Positions 5,107 to 12,904 of a stretch of DNA of 51,293 nucleotides are shown one piece after another. This stretch comes from Nitrospirota bacterium (lineage in GTDB: Bacteria > Nitrospirota > Thermodesulfovibrionia > Thermodesulfovibrionales > JdFR-85). Each line of letters begins with the position of its first letter. Within the stretch, counting starts at the first letter, position 1. The position numbers and the translations under genes are program-made. The stretch spans positions 1 through 51,293 of the forward strand of contig JAYWMQ010000005.1 of NCBI GenBank assembly GCA_035873375.1. Direction: 5' to 3'. The notes below the pieces were generated by a model. It was not told where the DNA came from. It was given only the letters and a program-made list of their open reading frames with translations, and did no database searches.

Positions 5107-5787
5107 ATGATCCCCTGGGAACTGATAGAATGCGCACCGGTACCCGGAAATGGAGGGGAGATTTGCCTGTACAGGCGCGACAAAGAATTTTCGATAAGGG
5201 TGAACGGTCATGAGCTTATGAACAGCCGCACTCATGGATCAGAGGAAGCCTTGGCAGAGCTTGCCTGTGAAAGGATCGCAGGAAGCGGCAGTCCCCGGAT
5301 ACTGATAGGGGGACTCGGCATGGGATTCACATTGGCATCGTCGCTTAAAGGGCTCGGCCCTGGTGCCCGGATAGTTGTATCCGAATTAGTCCCCGCAGTA
5401 GTAAAGTGGAACAGGGGACCTCTTGCCGGCCTCTCCGGCAACCCTCTTCAGGACAGCCGGGTCACTGTATGCGAAGTTGATGTGGGAGATGTGCTGAAGC
5501 AGAAGAAGAGGGTATATGATGCTATTTTGCTGGATGTGGACAACGGGCCTGAGGGACTGACGCGGGAGGGCAATGACCGGCTATATTCACAGGCCGGGCT
5601 TGAGACATCCTTTGCAGCGCTTCGGCCCGAGGGTGTGCTTGCTGTATGGTCAGCAGCACCAGACCGTGCCTTTGCAAGGCGTCTTCGCAGGTCGGGCTTT
5701 GATGTAGACGAGATGTGTGTAAGGGCACGCGGTTCCCGCGGTGGTGGGCGACATACAATCTGGATTGCGGTGCGCGGTTCCGGATGA
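5107..5787 (+). CDS. Spermidine synthase-like protein (SAM-fold), 226 aa
   Basis: A Rossmann methyltransferase-fold protein related to spermidine synthase. It has the GGLGMG nucleotide loop (about residues 63-68), an acidic strand end VVSELVP and a DAILLDVDNGPEG segment where true SpeE has the catalytic Asp motif. At 226 residues it is shorter than SpeE (about 280-300) and lacks the usual N-terminal tetramerisation strands. It may therefore be a divergent aminopropyl- or methyltransferase rather than SpeE itself. A GGAAAAAGAAAG tract precedes the ATG. A paralogue with the same architecture lies at 6806-7492 on the other strand. Confidence 0.75.
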   Translation: MIPWELIECAPVPGNGGEICLYRRDKEFSIRVNGHELMNSRTHGSEEALAELACERIAGSGSPRILIGGLGMGFTLASSLKGLGPGARIVVSELVPAVVKWNRGPLAGLSGNPLQDSRVTVCEVDVGDVLKQKKRVYDAILLDVDNGPEGLTREGNDRLYSQAGLETSFAALRPEGVLAVWSAAPDRAFARRLRRSGFDVDEMCVRARGSRGGGRHTIWIAVRGSG

Positions 5788-5809: not shown

Positions 5810-6274
5810 CTACTCTTTAGCGTGATATTTAAGCTGTAGACCTTTTAGAAAATTACGCAGGACCTGATCCTTACATTCACGGTAGTGTTTATGCCCCGGC
5901 TTACGGAAAAACGCACTTAATTCGTGTTTGCTAATGCGCAACCCAGCCAGGTCCATAATTTCCAATATGTCTTCGGCTTTCAGGTTTAATGCAATTCTTA
6001 ATTTTCTGAAAATGATATTGTTAGTTAAACGCCGCTCGGGCTCGGGTTGCGGCCCTTCTTTTTTGCCCCGTTTATAGTTAATCAAACCATTCAGGAAAAT
6101 CGCCAGCTGAGTATCGCTACATTTCTGATACGCAGGATCGTCATCTTTTTTTAACCAATCGCTGATCTGCTCCCGCGTTACCTGACAACCAGCCAAGCCA
6201 AATATAGCAATCATTGTCGAATCGTCAAAGTCAAATGTATAGCGGATACGGCGCAAGATATCGTTATTGGTCAC
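5810..6274 (-). CDS. yehS: DUF1456 family protein (YehS-like)
   Basis: A 154-residue protein made of two repeated DUF1456 units. Each has an N(D/I)I-RK-R-L opening, a helix with (I)xLAGxx(I/V)(S/T), and a C-terminal FLxGL(I/Q) helix (about residues 3-70 and 86-149). It matches E. coli YehS in length and layout. The function is unknown. Translation starts at GTG 6274, with GGAG about 10 bases upstream. Downstream it converges on the SpeE-like gene with 22 bases between the stops. Confidence 0.88.
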   Translation of the reverse strand: MTNNDILRRIRYTFDFDDSTMIAIFGLAGCQVTREQISDWLKKDDDPAYQKCSDTQLAIFLNGLINYKRGKKEGPQPEPERRLTNNIIFRKLRIALNLKAEDILEIMDLAGLRISKHELSAFFRKPGHKHYRECKDQVLRNFLKGLQLKYHAKE

Positions 6275-6334
6275 AAGTATGCTCCGATCTAAACTGTAGT
6301 TGTGTCACAACGACTCACTACCTGGTTACCTATG

Positions 6335-6375
6335 GTCCTGTCATGCAACAACTTACGCATCTCACATGACAGGAC
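6335..6375. repeat. Inverted repeat with 11-bp perfect arms
   Basis: GTCCTGTCATG (6335-6345) is mirrored by CATGACAGGAC (6365-6375) around a 19-base spacer. It lies between the SWIB stop and the DUF1456 start on the minus strand. No T-run follows on either strand, so it is better read as an operator or RNA structure than as an intrinsic terminator. Confidence 0.55.
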
Positions 6376-6389
6376 ACCAGACTTTAAGC

Positions 6390-6716
6390 TTATTCTATAT
6401 TTGCGCCGACAATGGCAGCCATCTGCATCATGTCGATCGTCTGGCCCTCTTTCAGCTTTGTAAGGTCTGTGACCTTGCCTGATTTGCTTTTGGATTTTGT
6501 GTTTTTGAAGATCGGAAGCAATTTAGCATCAGCCACTATGAACTTGCCCGCGTTCTCAGGCTTTCCATTTGCAGTCTTTGTCTGAAGTTTATTTGCTTTA
6601 ATATATTCCCATAGTTTCTTGGTTATCTCTGTTCTTGGAAGCTCGGTTGCCCCCAGGAGATCCGCCAAATCATTTTTCAGCTTTACCGGTTTATTCAATC
6701 CCTTTGCTTCTGCCAT
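6390..6716 (-). CDS. SWIB/MDM2 domain protein, 108 aa
   Basis: A stand-alone SWIB domain. The opening KPVKLKNDLADLLGA is followed by LPRTEITKKLWEYIKANKLQ, then a basic PENAGKFIVADAKLLPIF-type segment with a Lys/Ser-rich insert, and a C-terminal hydrophobic helix. SWIB is best known from eukaryotic chromatin remodellers, but bacterial copies (also in Chlamydiae fused to topoisomerase) exist, probably as DNA- or chromatin-like protein adaptors. I place the start at the ATG at 6716, preceded by AAGGAG at the correct distance; a TTG two codons upstream is less likely. The partner is unknown. Confidence 0.88.
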   Translation of the reverse strand: MAEAKGLNKPVKLKNDLADLLGATELPRTEITKKLWEYIKANKLQTKTANGKPENAGKFIVADAKLLPIFKNTKSKSKSGKVTDLTKLKEGQTIDMMQMAAIVGANIE

Positions 6717-6805
6717 TTTCAACTCCTTCGTTCCTGTATTTTTTTATCAATCTGCTAAACTTGACCGTAAGTTTACTACAATGCAGCCAAATATAGCTAA
6801 TCTCA

Positions 6806-7492
6806 TCATGGATAGGAACCGGATTTTGTTGCAATGTATACAACATGCCTGTTCCCTCTGCCCGCTCGATGCCGCTTAAAGGCAAACCCGGCACGGACAA
6901 GTCGCCTTTCAAATGCCTTATCAGGGTCCTCGGACCAGACGGCAAACACACCTCCGGGCATCAGGGATGAGCCGCTCATCGCCAGGGCGGTCTCTCCGTA
7001 TAAATAGTCACCCCTTTCCTTGGCAGCCTCAAACGGCCCCTCATAGAGATCAAGGATAATGGCATCAAACCGGTTGTCTCCGCCGTTCATTGCACAGTTG
7101 CGGATCAGTGACGCCACATCAGCAATCTCTATGGTAACCCTGGGGTCATTAACCGCCCCGCCGGTAAGTGCGGCCATGGGCCCGCAACACCATCTGACGA
7201 CCACGGGGTTAAGTTCAGCCACAACCACGCCGGCACCTTCGGGGAGCTCATCGAGCGCCGCCTTCAGGGTACAGCCCATCCCCAGCCCTCCGATGAGCAC
7301 CCTGGGGGCTTTTTTATTGTTCAGGAGCTTGCAGGCCAGTTTCGAAAGCAGCACCTCGGATTGGCTGGCCCAGGAGTTCATCAGCACACGGCCGTCAATG
7401 GTTATAAGAAAATCAGATCCGTTCCTTTGTCTAAGTTCAAGAAAACCATCAGCGGTATCATTGCTGTCAATTGTTTGCCACGGTTTGGTCAT
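6806..7492 (-). CDS. Spermidine synthase-like protein (SAM-fold), 228 aa, paralogue of 5107-5787
   Basis: The same architecture as the 5107-5787 protein: a conserved N-terminal (F)LI(T)IDGRVLMNS strand, RVLIGGLGMG loop, VVVAELNPVVVRW, and DAIILDLYEGPFE in place of the SpeE catalytic segment. The C-terminus shares FAVWSEDPDKAFERRL. The two are clear paralogues or family members separated by only two genes. Like its partner it lacks the N-terminal part of canonical spermidine synthase. AGGGGAAG lies upstream of the ATG. Aminopropyl transfer is possible but unproven. Confidence 0.75.
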   Translation of the reverse strand: MTKPWQTIDSNDTADGFLELRQRNGSDFLITIDGRVLMNSWASQSEVLLSKLACKLLNNKKAPRVLIGGLGMGCTLKAALDELPEGAGVVVAELNPVVVRWCCGPMAALTGGAVNDPRVTIEIADVASLIRNCAMNGGDNRFDAIILDLYEGPFEAAKERGDYLYGETALAMSGSSLMPGGVFAVWSEDPDKAFERRLVRAGFAFKRHRAGRGNRHVVYIATKSGSYP

Positions 7493-7565
7493 CTATCGTA
7501 AGCTTCCCCTTTAAGCAGCGAGTTCCAAATTAGAGTTTCGGTATATCTTTCCATTTCAACACCTC

Positions 7566-7997
7566 TCACAAGACAGCATACCCGACAACAAAATAACGGA
7601 TCAGCTTTCCTGTTGTCACCAGCACCAGAAATACTGCAATGTTTATCCTTAGAGCACCCGCGGCAAAAGTCAGCGGGTCACCAATAATCGGGACCCACGC
7701 AAACAACAGGCTGGCAACGCCGTATTTCTCAAATCTCTTTTTTGCCCCTGCAAATTCATCCTCGGATACTCTTAAAATCCTGCGAATAAACAAACCACTG
7801 CCCCAAAGTCCGACCGCATAATTCAGACATGCCCCCAGGACATTCCCGACTGTTGCCACACCCACGGTCATCGCCGGATTATAACCATTTGCCAGGAGGT
7901 AACCAAGCACAACCTCCGAACTCAAAGGCAGTATCGTGGCTGCTAAAAATGAGGCTAAAAAAAGGCCAAGATAACCGAAATCTGTAAAAAATTCCAT
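7566..7997 (-). CDS. yqaA: YqaA family inner-membrane protein (SNARE-associated/DedA-like)
   Basis: A short DedA-superfamily membrane protein, 143 residues from the ATG at 7997. The N-terminus, FGYLGLFLASFLAATILP, matches the YqaA start. A Gly-rich GNVLGACLNYAVGLWG helix and the re-entrant FAWVPIIGDPLTFAAGALR segment follow, with a basic membrane-proximal loop. Four to five hydrophobic segments are visible. DedA/YqaA proteins are inner-membrane and linked to lipid flipping or envelope homeostasis. Two earlier in-frame ATGs (8033 and 8066) would add an unrelated polar stretch, so I prefer the later one. No partner gene is evident. Confidence 0.8.
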   Translation of the reverse strand: MEFFTDFGYLGLFLASFLAATILPLSSEVVLGYLLANGYNPAMTVGVATVGNVLGACLNYAVGLWGSGLFIRRILRVSEDEFAGAKKRFEKYGVASLLFAWVPIIGDPLTFAAGALRINIAVFLVLVTTGKLIRYFVVGYAVL

Positions 7998-8169
7998 TAA
8001 ATATTCATCCCTGTTGTTATAATAGTATTGCATAACAGCAGGGTTTGTTGCCTTGCAATTAAACACTTGTGGACGGCGTCACCAAGACACCACCCATTCG
8101 CCACCTCTTAAAGCTCGGAAACCTTTTCAGCGTGGCCCCCTCAGGCCACAGTTAGAGAGAGTTCCTGCT

Positions 8170-9186
8170 TCATTTTAGTTTTTTAGATTTAGTTGTTATA
8201 TCGGTAATCTGATATTGATATGTTCTCACAGCTTTAAGCTTTTTGTCGTCAAAAATGACATAGTTATTGCCGTTTGCAATTGAACTTTTATAAATAATTC
8301 CATGAAAACCTATATTTTTAAGCAATTCACAAAGGTATTGACTTGGAAGATATTCTAAATTTGCTTCCCGTGGTATTATTGGTTTTGACAGTTCATTTCC
8401 AAGAAGTGTAAGAAATGGCATATTTTTATAAATGAGTTCTAATTCGTTTTCTTCATTTAGTTCAAAAGGACTGATAGTGTTTTTAGGATCCCGCAAATCT
8501 GCCAATTCTAGATCTTTATTCATTATGAATTCAGCAATAGTGACAAATTCTCCTTTATTGCCCCTGATTTCGGAAATTGCTGTATCAACCGACGACGCCA
8601 AATAGAGGTAAGGTATTCCAATTGGATTGGCTCGCCCATTTGATACTAAATTCTTAAGTGGCTTGCTCATTTGTGAAATTTTGTATGGTTTATCAGAAGT
8701 GTTAATTCTTGCTCTGAAAAATATTTGGGAGCCTTTATTGAGCATTACGCCAATATGCTTGCCGAATGGCTCCAAATTACTCTTGACAGGGGCATTATTG
8801 GGAAAAAATCTATTTCTATGTTTTAATTCTTCTCTAAAATTTTCCCATTGCTCAACATTTTTTTGTTCTATTAAAAATACAGGTTTAAATTTAACTTTGA
8901 ACAGATCGTTATTGCATGAGATTGCTTTTAATAACTTTTGCTGCATACGATTTACGGTGATTGTAAAAACATTCCAATCAATTTGCAAAAGCTCATTAAG
9001 TGCAACCCCCTCTCGGTCTTTTTCATACAACTCCAGGAGAGGTTCAAATCGATCAAATAATTCTTCAGGCTTTATCAGTGTTGCATTATCTGTTTTGCAA
9101 AAGGAACACTTCCCTTTTTTGTTACTAACTGCGTTAATATGCTTCTGCAAAAAATTATCAGAAAAACAATTAGGGCAACAATTCAT
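8170..9186 (-). CDS. RES-domain protein with N-terminal zinc ribbon (HEPN/RES-type)
   Basis: A 338-residue protein with two parts. The N-terminus carries Cys3/4, Cys7 and CSFC (27-30), a zinc ribbon seen ahead of many RES proteins, then an all-helical region (about 38-125) of the HEPN/RES N-terminal type. The RES domain starts near 153 and shows the expected residues: FRAR (R158, R160), GRANP (184-188), LYLASS (194-199), the acidic E206 in SEIR, and C-terminal YLPSQYLCEL with IIYKSS and NYVIFD. RES toxins consume NAD+ or ADP-ribosylate targets. It is the last gene of a three-gene minus-strand operon and starts just after the sce7725 stop, so it is probably translationally coupled. No separate Xre/DUF2384 antitoxin, the usual RES partner, is adjacent. 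Confidence 0.85.
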   Translation of the reverse strand: MNCCPNCFSDNFLQKHINAVSNKKGKCSFCKTDNATLIKPEELFDRFEPLLELYEKDREGVALNELLQIDWNVFTITVNRMQQKLLKAISCNNDLFKVKFKPVFLIEQKNVEQWENFREELKHRNRFFPNNAPVKSNLEPFGKHIGVMLNKGSQIFFRARINTSDKPYKISQMSKPLKNLVSNGRANPIGIPYLYLASSVDTAISEIRGNKGEFVTIAEFIMNKDLELADLRDPKNTISPFELNEENELELIYKNMPFLTLLGNELSKPIIPREANLEYLPSQYLCELLKNIGFHGIIYKSSIANGNNYVIFDDKKLKAVRTYQYQITDITTKSKKLK

Positions 9187-9187
9187 A

Positions 9188-10138
9188 TCAACTTTCTCTG
9201 CTGATGAAGTTTGCCATTAATTCAATATGATGCTGCATAGAAAGCTTTTTAACATATCCAAGTCCGGGATAATGCTGCATCTTAAAAAGTTTAAGATATT
9301 CAGCGCACGCTCTTGATTTGAAAATTAGGGATTTAGGCTTATTTACTTTCTTTGCCAATTTTGCAAGAGCCTCAAGAAACTTTCCTCCAGGGTCGGTTGG
9401 AGAATCTGTCTGATCAGAAATAAAGTGATAGATAAACATATCATCATCATTGTCAAGGTACGTCATATGAATGGCAACAGCATATGCAGGACCACCGGTC
9501 TCTGTGTAATCGTCACCAACAATTAAATAATCACCGAATCCATCCATTCCTTCATCAGGAAAGGTAATATGTAAATCAGAAAAATGTTCATTAGATGGAT
9601 AGTGTGCATTCTTTTTTTGTGGTTTAAAGCCGTCCCTGATTAAAATTCTTTTGATTCCATCTTTTTTCAAATACCTTTGATATAACTTTCCGGCAAATCC
9701 ATCAATAAAAATATGGGTTTTAATATTTTCATATCCATCTATTGCGGCAGCAAGCTTTTTGCCATTAGTATACCCATAATGCAGAATAGAAAAGTTAAAA
9801 TTACGGTGTTTTTTTAGTAGCGCAACTAAATTGTCAATATTTGATTCAGCATGAAGCATGTAACCAACCGATATATTTTTTAACTTTTTAAATTTATCTT
9901 CGATAAGTTCCGTTAAAATGCTCGAAGAAGGTACAGGCTTCTGTCCAGCTATAGGATTCACTATAAGAGTACAATCAACACTACTTTCGTTCATAGCTTT
10001 TATTGAGCGTGTTAACGCTGCAAAGTCGCTTTTTACCGGTTCGATAATTGGATGGATGTTATTATTTGCTAAAAACTCGGCATTATCCCGAAGCAATATC
10101 AGTTCAAACTGTTTTCCCCTTAAATATGGATAATACAT
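9188..10138 (-). CDS. sce7725 family protein (T4 beta-protein-like)
   Basis: A 316-residue protein that opens with YYPYLRGKQFELILLR and HPIIEPVK, the recognisable start of the sce7725 family, which is related to the phage T4 beta protein. Alternating beta strands and helices suggest a TIM-barrel-like fold (inference). A DYLIVGDDYTETGGPAYAV segment near residue 200 carries conserved acidic residues. Biochemical function is unknown. sce7725 genes are typically found beside sce7726 genes, as here. It is preceded by AGGAGG and lies 11 bases after the upstream gene. Confidence 0.82.
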   Translation of the reverse strand: MYYPYLRGKQFELILLRDNAEFLANNNIHPIIEPVKSDFAALTRSIKAMNESSVDCTLIVNPIAGQKPVPSSSILTELIEDKFKKLKNISVGYMLHAESNIDNLVALLKKHRNFNFSILHYGYTNGKKLAAAIDGYENIKTHIFIDGFAGKLYQRYLKKDGIKRILIRDGFKPQKKNAHYPSNEHFSDLHITFPDEGMDGFGDYLIVGDDYTETGGPAYAVAIHMTYLDNDDDMFIYHFISDQTDSPTDPGGKFLEALAKLAKKVNKPKSLIFKSRACAEYLKLFKMQHYPGLGYVKKLSMQHHIELMANFISRES

Positions 10139-10149
10139 GTAATTTCCTC

Positions 10150-11052
10150 CTAAGCCGGCTTCGGAATGATTACTGAGCCAATGTTGCTTGTAAAGTTAGA
10201 CATTAATGCCCGCATTTTTGCCTTTTCACTACAAATACTCAATGCATAGGCAGATAATGAGGCAGGAGCTTTAGTAATGAATTCCTTAAGCACCTTCGTA
10301 TTATTTCGTTTTCGAAGAGTATTCATCGTTAAATAATGTGCTGTTTCGGGAGGAATTTTACAGAAAAGTTTTTTGCACTCCCGGTATATTTGAGTGTTCG
10401 GGACATTCGGTGCTATTTCATAGAATTCTTCGACAATTTTTAGATATTCTTTTTTTCTGAGAGAATCGAACAATGTGTCCATGTGTATGTTTTTCTTATT
10501 TGATTTTGATTTTCTGATTGTTGATATAGTGTTTCTATCGGTTAATACCTGGATGCCGACTGCGTCGGGTAGTATTGATTTAAGTTTTGTTGCCTGGGAA
10601 TTAGAGGTTATGACATTAATATGGTCAAAAATCTGATAGTAAGCTTTTACCTGGTTTTCGAGACGTGCAAAAGAATCGAATTCAGATTTTATCTCGTAGA
10701 CTGTTGATGTCCCATTTATCACTACTGCGTCAGCCTTACATTTGCCAACACGGAATTCTGTTAGCATATGTGAAGTGTTCAAGGAATGCTTGCCGAGTAG
10801 GATTTTATTGGCTATTGCATTCTTATAAATATATTCATTTCTGTAGTTTTTGAAGAGAATGTTGTAAATCCAGTCAAAAAACTGAGAAAGTGACATGGAA
10901 TGATCTATTTGTTCAAGAATGCCACTGTTTGTGCATACCTCATACAAGTAAGCGGAATATCCTTTGTGAGAAAGGCTATCCATCACAATGGACGAAAATA
11001 TCCGGCTTACTGCTGGCAAGTATTTCCGATTTATTATTTCTTTAGTTTTCAT
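10150..11052 (-). CDS. sce7726 family protein, predicted PD-(D/E)XK nuclease fold
   Basis: A 300-residue protein of the sce7726 type. The core shows E99 in LTEFRVG, D108 in KADAVV, and E120-x-K122 in VYEIKSE, spaced as in PD-(D/E)XK nucleases, followed by SFARLENQVKAYY and a VIT strand. The first 80 residues are helical and the C-terminal third is basic. Family knowledge pairs it with sce7725; nuclease activity is inferred from the motif only. It is the first gene of the cassette. A TATAAT on the minus strand (11069-11064) lies just ahead of the ATG and would leave a very short leader. Codon use is AT-rich compared with the flanking genes. Confidence 0.8.
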   Translation of the reverse strand: MKTKEIINRKYLPAVSRIFSSIVMDSLSHKGYSAYLYEVCTNSGILEQIDHSMSLSQFFDWIYNILFKNYRNEYIYKNAIANKILLGKHSLNTSHMLTEFRVGKCKADAVVINGTSTVYEIKSEFDSFARLENQVKAYYQIFDHINVITSNSQATKLKSILPDAVGIQVLTDRNTISTIRKSKSNKKNIHMDTLFDSLRKKEYLKIVEEFYEIAPNVPNTQIYRECKKLFCKIPPETAHYLTMNTLRKRNNTKVLKEFITKAPASLSAYALSICSEKAKMRALMSNFTSNIGSVIIPKPA

Positions 11053-11417
11053 TGCCTACCGGTATTATATAAAATCATCCCATCTTAATAAAAATATATT
11101 GGCTTATATCCACCCCAAAAAGCAAAACTTGAATAATACTTCAATTTTCCACTATTTATTTTGATTTTTCTAAAGGCTTCCATTACCCCCCGTGTCAGGA
11201 TAGATATCCGGTAACCTGAGTCGTATATTCAACCTTACATGAAGCTGAAAGATAAAGATAATAAAAGACATGGGTGAAGAGCAGTGAGCGGTGTCTACAT
11301 ATTTCAGAAATTTAATTCATCTCGTAGGCGGCGTCACACATCTACCATCCAAATCCGGTATAATTAAGAGTAGCTTTTAGCTTGGAAACAACTTAAAAAG
11401 GGCAGTAAGGTGAATAC
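11053..11417. other. Divergent intergenic region between the RES cassette and the DEAD-box gene
   Basis: These 365 bases separate two divergently transcribed units. On the minus strand, TATAAT at 11069-11064 points at the sce7726 gene, with a weak TTTATT -35 17 bases away. On the plus strand, TATAAT at 11359-11364 could be the -10 of the helicase promoter, but its -35 is poor. No gene or gene remnant was recognised. Confidence 0.45.
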
Positions 11418-12701
11418 ATGAAATTTGAAAAGTACCGGATATCAGAGACAATTAAGAAGAATCTTGACCTGATGGGTTTTAAAAACCCTACTAATATACA
11501 GTTCAAGTCCATACCCTCGATCCTGAAAGGCGAGGATGTCCTGGCGATTGCACAGACCGGGACCGGGAAGACGGCTGCCTTTGCTATTCCCATTATTGAC
11601 ACGATCCACAGGGAGAAGAGCAGCAAGCGGTCCCTTGGGATCAAGTGCATTGTCATGGTTCCCACGCGTGAACTGGCAATGCAGATCGGGGAGGTCTTTG
11701 AAAAGCTTGCGCGGCATACAAAGGTCAAGTCCTTTGCCCTGTACGGCGGGGTCGAGCAGGACCGGCAGGTCAAAAGACTTCAGGACGGAATAGACATACT
11801 TATTGCGACCCCTGGACGGATGTTTGATCTCATCAAGCAGGGCTTCGTTGACCTTTCACGAATCAGGACCCTTGTGCTTGATGAGGCCGACCATATGCTT
11901 GACATCGGGTTTATTGATGACATCAAGTATGTAAAGAGGAAGCTTACGAACAAGCATCAGACACTCTTCTTCTCGGCCACGATCAACAAGGAGATTAAAA
12001 AACTCGCCTTCTCGCAGGTCAGGAGCTCTGCAATACGCATCCAGATAGCGCCTGAGAACCCTGTCTCAAAGAATGTCTCGCACTTTGTCATGTTTGTGGA
12101 GATGGATGACAAGAGGTTCTTCCTTGAGAGGTTTGTCAAGGATAATCCGGAAAGCAAGATAATCGTATTTGTGAGGACACGGGTCCGTGCCGAACGGGTA
12201 GCAAAGGCCATGGAGAGGGTGCAAATAGAGACGGTTACTCTCCACGGAGACAAGAAACAGGACGACCGGTCCGAGGTGATGAAAAAGTTCAAGGAGGGCA
12301 GCTACCGCATCATGATTGCCACGGATATCAGTGCCCGCGGGATTGATGTGCCTGATGTCGATTACGTAATCAACTATGATCTTCCGGACAAGCCCGAAAA
12401 TTACGTGCACAGGGTTGGAAGGACCGGCCGCGGCGTCAATCTGGGGGTAGCGATCTCTTTCTGCAGCAAGGAAGAAAAGGGACTTCTTGAGGATATACAG
12501 CAGCTCATCAATAAAGATATCGAGGTCATAACGCTCCACAAAGCAGACTATGAAGACATTGTCAGCTCACCCGCAGAGGAGCTCAACCTGCAGGAGTTGA
12601 TCGATAAACATGAGCAATGGGAAGCAGACAGGAAGAAAAAAAAGAAAAAATCCCCGAAGACAGCAAAGAAGAAAAATAAAAGCCGGAGTGTGAACAGATG
12701 A
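11418..12701 (+). CDS. DEAD-box ATP-dependent RNA helicase
   Basis: A 427-residue DEAD-box helicase. The Q-motif region (NPTNIQFKSIP), motif I AQTGTGKT, PTRELA, motif II LDEADHML, motif III SAT, ATDISARGID and motif VI HRVGRTGR are all in order over about residues 20-350. The C-terminal tail (about 385-427) is Lys-rich, with long KKKKKK runs typical of RhlE/CshA-type RNA-binding tails. The likely role is unwinding of structured RNA in decay or ribosome assembly. It ends in an ATGA overlap with slyX, so the two are translationally coupled. A second DEAD-box gene lies at 32517-33776. Confidence 0.95.
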   Translation: MKFEKYRISETIKKNLDLMGFKNPTNIQFKSIPSILKGEDVLAIAQTGTGKTAAFAIPIIDTIHREKSSKRSLGIKCIVMVPTRELAMQIGEVFEKLARHTKVKSFALYGGVEQDRQVKRLQDGIDILIATPGRMFDLIKQGFVDLSRIRTLVLDEADHMLDIGFIDDIKYVKRKLTNKHQTLFFSATINKEIKKLAFSQVRSSAIRIQIAPENPVSKNVSHFVMFVEMDDKRFFLERFVKDNPESKIIVFVRTRVRAERVAKAMERVQIETVTLHGDKKQDDRSEVMKKFKEGSYRIMIATDISARGIDVPDVDYVINYDLPDKPENYVHRVGRTGRGVNLGVAISFCSKEEKGLLEDIQQLINKDIEVITLHKADYEDIVSSPAEELNLQELIDKHEQWEADRKKKKKKSPKTAKKKNKSRSVNR

Positions 12702-12904
12702 ATGAAGACCGTTTATTGGAGATTGAAACAAGGATAGCCTTTCAGGAAAACACGATAAAAGACCTGAGCGATACCGTCTACAATCAGCAGAAACAGATAG
12801 ATGCCCTGCACGAGACCCTGAAACAGCTCATTGACCGGTTCAGGGTCTCATCCACTATATCCTCCGGAGGAGACCTGAAAGACGAAAAACCGCCGCATTA
12901 TTAA
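12698..12904 (+). CDS. slyX: SlyX family protein
   Basis: A 68-residue coiled-coil protein matching SlyX: an N-terminal RLLEIETRIAFQE heptad region, TIKDLSDTVYNQQKQID, a second helix LHETLKQLIDRF, and the C-terminal PPHY signature. SlyX proteins form small helical bundles; the function is unsettled. The start codon overlaps the helicase stop by four bases. Confidence 0.92.
   Translation: MNEDRLLEIETRIAFQENTIKDLSDTVYNQQKQIDALHETLKQLIDRFRVSSTISSGGDLKDEKPPHY

Follow-up and report, generated by a model that had tools for sequence, protein, structure and literature searches.

Three genes packed together on the minus strand of a Nitrospirota contig (JAYWMQ010000005.1, assembly GCA_035873375.1) combine a RES protein with members of the sce7725 and sce7726 families. 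Do these genes form one unit, and could that unit defend its host against phages? A preliminary description, made from the DNA letters alone, had proposed a candidate defense or toxin-antitoxin (TA)-like system. We refer to the whole stretch of 51,293 nucleotides that was analyzed as the window and to the three genes as the trio.

10150..11052, minus strand: sce7726-family protein, 300 aa; PD-(D/E)XK nuclease-like core; NCBIfam NF033832, 7e-60
9188..10138, minus strand: sce7725-family protein, 316 aa; predicted TIM barrel; NCBIfam NF033831, 3e-97
8170..9186, minus strand: RES protein, 338 aa; zinc ribbon, HEPN/RES-NTD1-like region, RES domain; Pfam RES, 3e-14
6332..11332, no strand: 5.0-kb block including the trio, missing from the equivalent place in a genome of the same family, G011 (blastn)

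The open reading frames and the family matches agreed with the layout first described: sce7726 is followed after 11 bases by sce7725, which is followed after 1 base by the RES gene. The RES and sce7726 genes are each present in a single copy in this genome. None of the three window proteins contains a hydrophobic, transmembrane (TM)-like segment.

The trio is passed on as a conserved operon

An alignment of sce7725 was scanned against the contigs of about 85,000 genomes and returned 390 relatives. We kept the best 80 loci, which are those most similar to the window, and ran HMMs of the three families on them. The order sce7726-sce7725-RES, on one strand as in the window, was found in 78 of these 80 best loci of the 390 relatives; the other two lie at contig ends, one lacking RES (L013) and one lacking sce7726 (L029). 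Gaps between the genes in these loci were mostly 20 bases or less, and in two loci (L067 and L072) the RES gene was split into two frames.

A second sampling drew genomes evenly from phyla, independently of their similarity to the window. sce7725 was above the cut-off in 14 of 395 Bacteroidota genomes, 13 of which carried the trio, and in 4 of 396 genomes from the window's own phylum, all 4 with the trio. The Pseudomonadota sample, searched by sce7726, gave 14 genomes of 398 above the cut-off: 4 trios and 10 convergent cII-Beta pairs of the phage P4 type. Every complete trio was co-directional. The pairwise distances of the three proteins were also correlated (r of 0.87 to 0.90, against a maximum of 0.16 in shuffles). 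Conserved versus random co-occurrence of the three families had been set beforehand as a test of the preliminary description, and the co-occurrence proved conserved. The three genes are thus inherited together as an operon. That three unrelated genes lie side by side here by accident has a vanishingly small probability; this reading is refuted by the conservation of gene order across phyla, and the correlated divergence of the proteins also speaks against it.

Predicted folds and active sites of the three proteins

The RES protein had been described as a RES domain with an N-terminal zinc ribbon. Both parts are present, but that account was incomplete: between the zinc ribbon (C4, C7, C27, and C30) and the RES domain (about residues 155 to 326) sits a HEPN/RES-NTD1-like region (residues 22 to 129), whose match to the Pfam HEPN/RES N-terminal domain 1 (1.5e-5) falls slightly below the curated cut-off. 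R158, R160, R185, Y195, E206, S301, and N308, together with the four cysteines, do not vary among 81 homologs where ungapped. The motifs originally named for this protein and for sce7726 (E99, D108, E120, and K122) are likewise non-varying in the 81 homologs at ungapped positions.

An AlphaFold2 model of the RES protein (pLDDT 94) was closest, within residues 132 to 336, to the solved structures of MbcT (Z 12.6), NatT (Z 11.4), ParT (Z 10.0), and Xre-RES (Z 9.1). The active-site residues of NatT are R23, R82, Y93, S184, and N193 (PMC11535050), and the invariant residues of the window protein agree with this set; by order and spacing, NatT R82 and Y93 probably correspond to R185 and Y195. A RES model with an NAD pocket had also been named beforehand as a test, and the model has the MbcT/NatT fold with the active-site residues present. 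In predicted fold and active-site residues, the RES protein therefore corresponds to the NAD+ phosphorylase toxins. ParT is a good structural match too, and the RES protein might instead ADP-ribosylate one defined target, in the way that ParT modifies Prs, rather than drain NAD+. Since the NAD+ phosphorylases MbcT and NatT match slightly better, although fold alone does not set the reaction, we hold this to be quite improbable. RNase activity of the HEPN-like region was considered and dropped: the R118-H123 pair of the HEPN RxxxxH motif is kept in only 34 of the 81 homologs, so that such activity is unlikely to be essential.

In sce7726, the kept residues are E99, D108, E120, K122, D126, R130, Q134, and Y138, from which the motif set E99, D108, E120-x-K122, and Q134xxxY138 can be read. 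E99, D108, E120, and K122 are conserved wherever aligned, in CII of phage P4 as well. P4 CII matches NF033832 at 2.5e-44, and the window protein matches this model at 7e-60, both well above the cut-off; the window sce7726 begins with some 70 extra residues that have no counterpart in P4 CII. The ExK motif with a downstream QxxxY recalls RecB-like nucleases at the level of motifs. The original call of a predicted PD-(D/E)XK nuclease is borne out by these conserved residues, and computation places sce7726, as a putative nuclease with the full PD-(D/E)XK motif set, in the family of P4 CII. A profile match of sce7726 to Helicobacter CagY (positions 198 to 289, outside the nuclease core) was set aside as probably a repetitive-region match.

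The AlphaFold2 model of sce7725 (pLDDT 92) is a TIM barrel. Many unrelated TIM-barrel enzymes are level with one another as matches, at Z 11 to 12.7; because so many kinds tie, no reaction can be assigned to sce7725, and a catalytic reading was dropped. Its best viral match is an uncharacterized Gordonia phage protein. The preliminary description had called it a T4 beta-protein-like sce7725; the family assignment stands, but the better label is phage P4 Beta (PF14350), and sce7725 has no match in Pfam, that family included. In an hhalign comparison with 16 Beta proteins, the N-terminal 63 columns aligned at an E value of 5.7e-4 and a probability of 30%, and the Beta profile matched the sce7725 of one trio at 3e-4 in a small search set. 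These alignments hint weakly at homology between sce7725 and P4 Beta.

Relation to P4 gop-beta-cII and to RES toxin modules

The P4 gop-beta-cII system gives protection from lambda and P1, and its Gop protein is toxic when Beta is missing (Rousset et al. 2022, PMC9122126). In both systems a member of the sce7726 family, CII in P4, stands beside a second protein; that of P4, Beta, has an N terminus with a weak resemblance to sce7725, and P4 adds a toxic third gene. That gene is gop in P4 and RES in the trio; Beta falls in PF14350, by which sce7725 is unmatched; and P4 beta and cII are convergent, as in 10 of 10 Beta-cII pairs of the Pseudomonadota sample, whereas the trio is co-directional. P4 Gop has 133 aa, with stretches of hydrophobic residues near the N terminus and a polar C-terminal portion, and gave no RES match. 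With Gop absent and gene orientation different, we do not count the trio as a gop-beta-cII member. Because sce7726 is of the CII family and Gop is toxic without Beta, the trio nevertheless looks like the logic of gop-beta-cII with a RES effector. The placement of sce7726 in the CII family of a tested system is independent support for the tie to defense first proposed. In PADLOC-DB 2.0.0 (E up to 1), the model "cll," a name that we read as cII of gop-beta-cII, matches the window sce7726 at 5e-20, and the RES and sce7725 proteins had no matches.

In P4-type convergent cII-Beta pairs, an ImmA/IrrE (Peptidase_M78) gene often abuts Beta (L106 2952-3953, L163 2868-4133, L164 6591-7475, L165 6922-8108, L167 3401-3943, L168 2997-4102, and L169 6867-8058; L164 is barely below the Pfam cut-off). 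At several of these loci, the gene upstream of ImmA/IrrE encodes a small protein that recalls Gop and has a TM-like segment. P4 gop-beta-cII may derive from such an arrangement of four genes by reduction.

RES-Xre TA modules (MbcTA, NatRT, ParST, and P. putida RES-Xre) share the RES fold and catalytic residues with the trio. They differ in their partners: the trio pairs RES with sce7725 and sce7726, with no Xre, MbcA, or ParS antitoxin among the three genes, and its RES protein additionally carries a zinc ribbon and a HEPN/RES-NTD1-like region. As had been noted, no dedicated RES antitoxin is adjacent either, the neighbors in the window encoding a VTT protein and a DEAD helicase (Pfam).

Solo RES proteins on enterobacterial plasmids (L127 and L128) also combine HEPN/RES-NTD1 with RES and are 24 to 25% identical to the window protein, but they are longer (457 to 499 aa), with an extended C terminus, and have no adjoining sce7725 or sce7726. 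Related, mostly longer plasmid RES genes without sce7725 or sce7726 were seen at L127 2968-4467, L128 2980-4353, L129 3543-4628, and L130 3435-4763; such solo-RES matches are common on Enterobacteriaceae plasmids.

Transfer, surroundings, and proposed function

The preliminary description had suggested a transferred island from the AT-richness of the region, and both the composition and the transfer found further support. GC content is 34.4% in the trio against 47.1% in the remainder of the window, and the trio was AT-richer than its own flanks in 43 of 45 loci, by a mean of 7.7 points. Among 61 relatives, sce7725 occurs in one, the window's own genome. In G011, the sequences matching window positions 5810-6331 and 11333-12904 align 177 bp apart, with the flanks joined without the block; in a genome of the same genus, G003, the contig stops at the helicase gene and is uninformative on the empty site. 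The block 6332-11332 also carries SWIB, spermidine-synthase-like, and VTT genes, and the trio may therefore have arrived alone or together with them. In the window, two similar spermidine-synthase-like genes lie in opposite orientation (5107-5787 and 6806-7492), one of them inside the block absent from G011.

A quick tree of sce7725 mixes phyla in strongly supported clades, and the 14-row clade around the window spans several phyla; contamination of metagenome-assembled genomes (MAGs) can add to this mixing. The trio of one Nanoarchaeota MAG (L034 4614-5585) is nearly identical to those of Sulfurimonas MAGs, reflecting either bin contamination or very recent transfer. The trio also occurs in a Salmonella houtenae region that resembles an ICE, on Shinella and Moraxella plasmids, and in viral-collection contigs; megablast with the Lelliottia trio gave no match in E. 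coli genomes.

PADLOC model names numbered 149 near the trio, compared with 12 for control regions taken from the same genomes. A single HsdS-like protein supplies 75 of the 149, so the count overstates the enrichment. Pfam families near the trio included integrase (4), relaxase (3), resolvase (2), and ArdA (2), none of them among the listed control families; these are small numbers without a statistical test. The proposed enrichment in defense islands is no more than suggestive: PADLOC-type flanking genes exceed the control, but by an uneven count.

Beyond gene content, we infer every step of the following mechanism. sce7725 and sce7726 would hold the RES enzyme inactive, with sce7725 most likely its direct partner; sce7726, as a sensor of nucleic acid or as a nuclease, would signal infection. 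Once disturbed by a phage or by foreign DNA of another kind, the two partners would release RES, which would split NAD+ with phosphate, so that NAD+ is drained and growth halts before phage release. The trio would then work like P4 gop-beta-cII, a soluble NAD-depleting effector replacing the membrane toxin Gop; on this analogy, the RES cassette would be toxic and would defend against phage by abortive infection. That the trio is a single, horizontally mobile toxin-regulator cassette, in which the partners hold RES inactive until infection sets off NAD+ splitting, we judge evenly balanced between true and false. The wider proposal is a tentative one, to which we give somewhat less than an even chance: the trio would be a widespread anti-phage system still without a name, with its RES NAD+ phosphorylase under the control of a PD-(D/E)XK sensor and a TIM-barrel regulator, built on a CII and Beta-like core with interchangeable effectors.

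Carriage on ICEs and plasmids also fits a TA addiction cassette that stabilizes plasmids, ICEs, and genomic islands, with RES as toxin, sce7725 and sce7726 as a two-part antitoxin, and no dedicated anti-phage role. Most RES toxins characterized so far belong to TA systems and have no demonstrated role in immunity (PMC11535050), and RES is lost or broken in places where sce7726 and sce7725 look intact (L067 and the pairs L122 to L126). This reading leaves the conserved nuclease-like third component, with its full motif set, unexplained, and the CII relative belongs to a cassette with measured phage protection. A Glutamicibacter plasmid, moreover, carries an intact-looking orphan RES gene beside an insertion sequence, without sce7725 or sce7726, which speaks against a toxin in constant need of neutralization. 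We consider addiction unlikely.

The same orphan, like the solo long-form RES proteins on plasmids, favors a different relationship, in which RES is silent alone and is switched on by the nuclease-TIM barrel pair on meeting foreign nucleic acid; the invariant nuclease motifs also suggest an active sensor or enzyme. P4 favors restraint, its Beta partner suppressing Gop toxicity, and the orphan RES may merely be without a promoter. Activation, too, seems to us improbable. The preferred reading, restraint of RES in a phage defense, is weakened by this orphan RES as well, by the weak link between sce7725 and P4 Beta, by the convergence of Beta with CII in P4, by the uneven count of PADLOC-type flanking genes, and by NatT, another RES toxin, for which tests on over 50 phages showed no effect (PMC11535050).

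According to a 2024 study (PMC11535050), known NAD-draining phage defenses use TIR or SIR2 domains, and immunity had not been linked to any RES TA system. RES in immunity is not a new idea, because a 2022 survey already lists RES-clade domains among those deployed by prokaryotic immune systems (PMC9503650); what is new here is the conserved RES cassette and its tie to CII. A literature search, with bioRxiv and most subscription papers outside its reach, found no paper naming the three-gene system. If the defense reading is true, this would be a first case of a RES effector shown to act in immunity. CII and a Beta-like protein would then serve as a general core for sensing, with swappable effectors: RES in the trio, Gop in P4, and, in many chromosomes, an ImmA/IrrE protease together with a membrane protein. 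A conserved cassette that joins RES to a relative of a tested P4 defense protein makes the question of RES in immunity directly testable, and sce7725 and sce7726, widespread families of undefined role, gain a concrete role that can be tested.

The sce7726-sce7725 pair can stand without a RES effector, as in viral-collection contigs (L122 to L126) and in one Bacteroidota genome (L223). Among the former are L122 586-2417, L123 5108-6930, L125 958-2903, and L126 1130-2904; the L126 pair adjoins an integrase-like ORF, and the L123 pair precedes an ATPase-like gene and one further gene. Convergent with the Bacteroidota pair is a gene for a 241-aa protein with hydrophobic stretches (L223 2495-3220), which may serve as a different membrane effector. 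On a contig classified as Listeria phage (L206 6108-7957), sce7725 occurs without sce7726 or RES, directly after a 295-aa ORF that resembles another nuclease; its neighboring transporter genes look bacterial, not phage.
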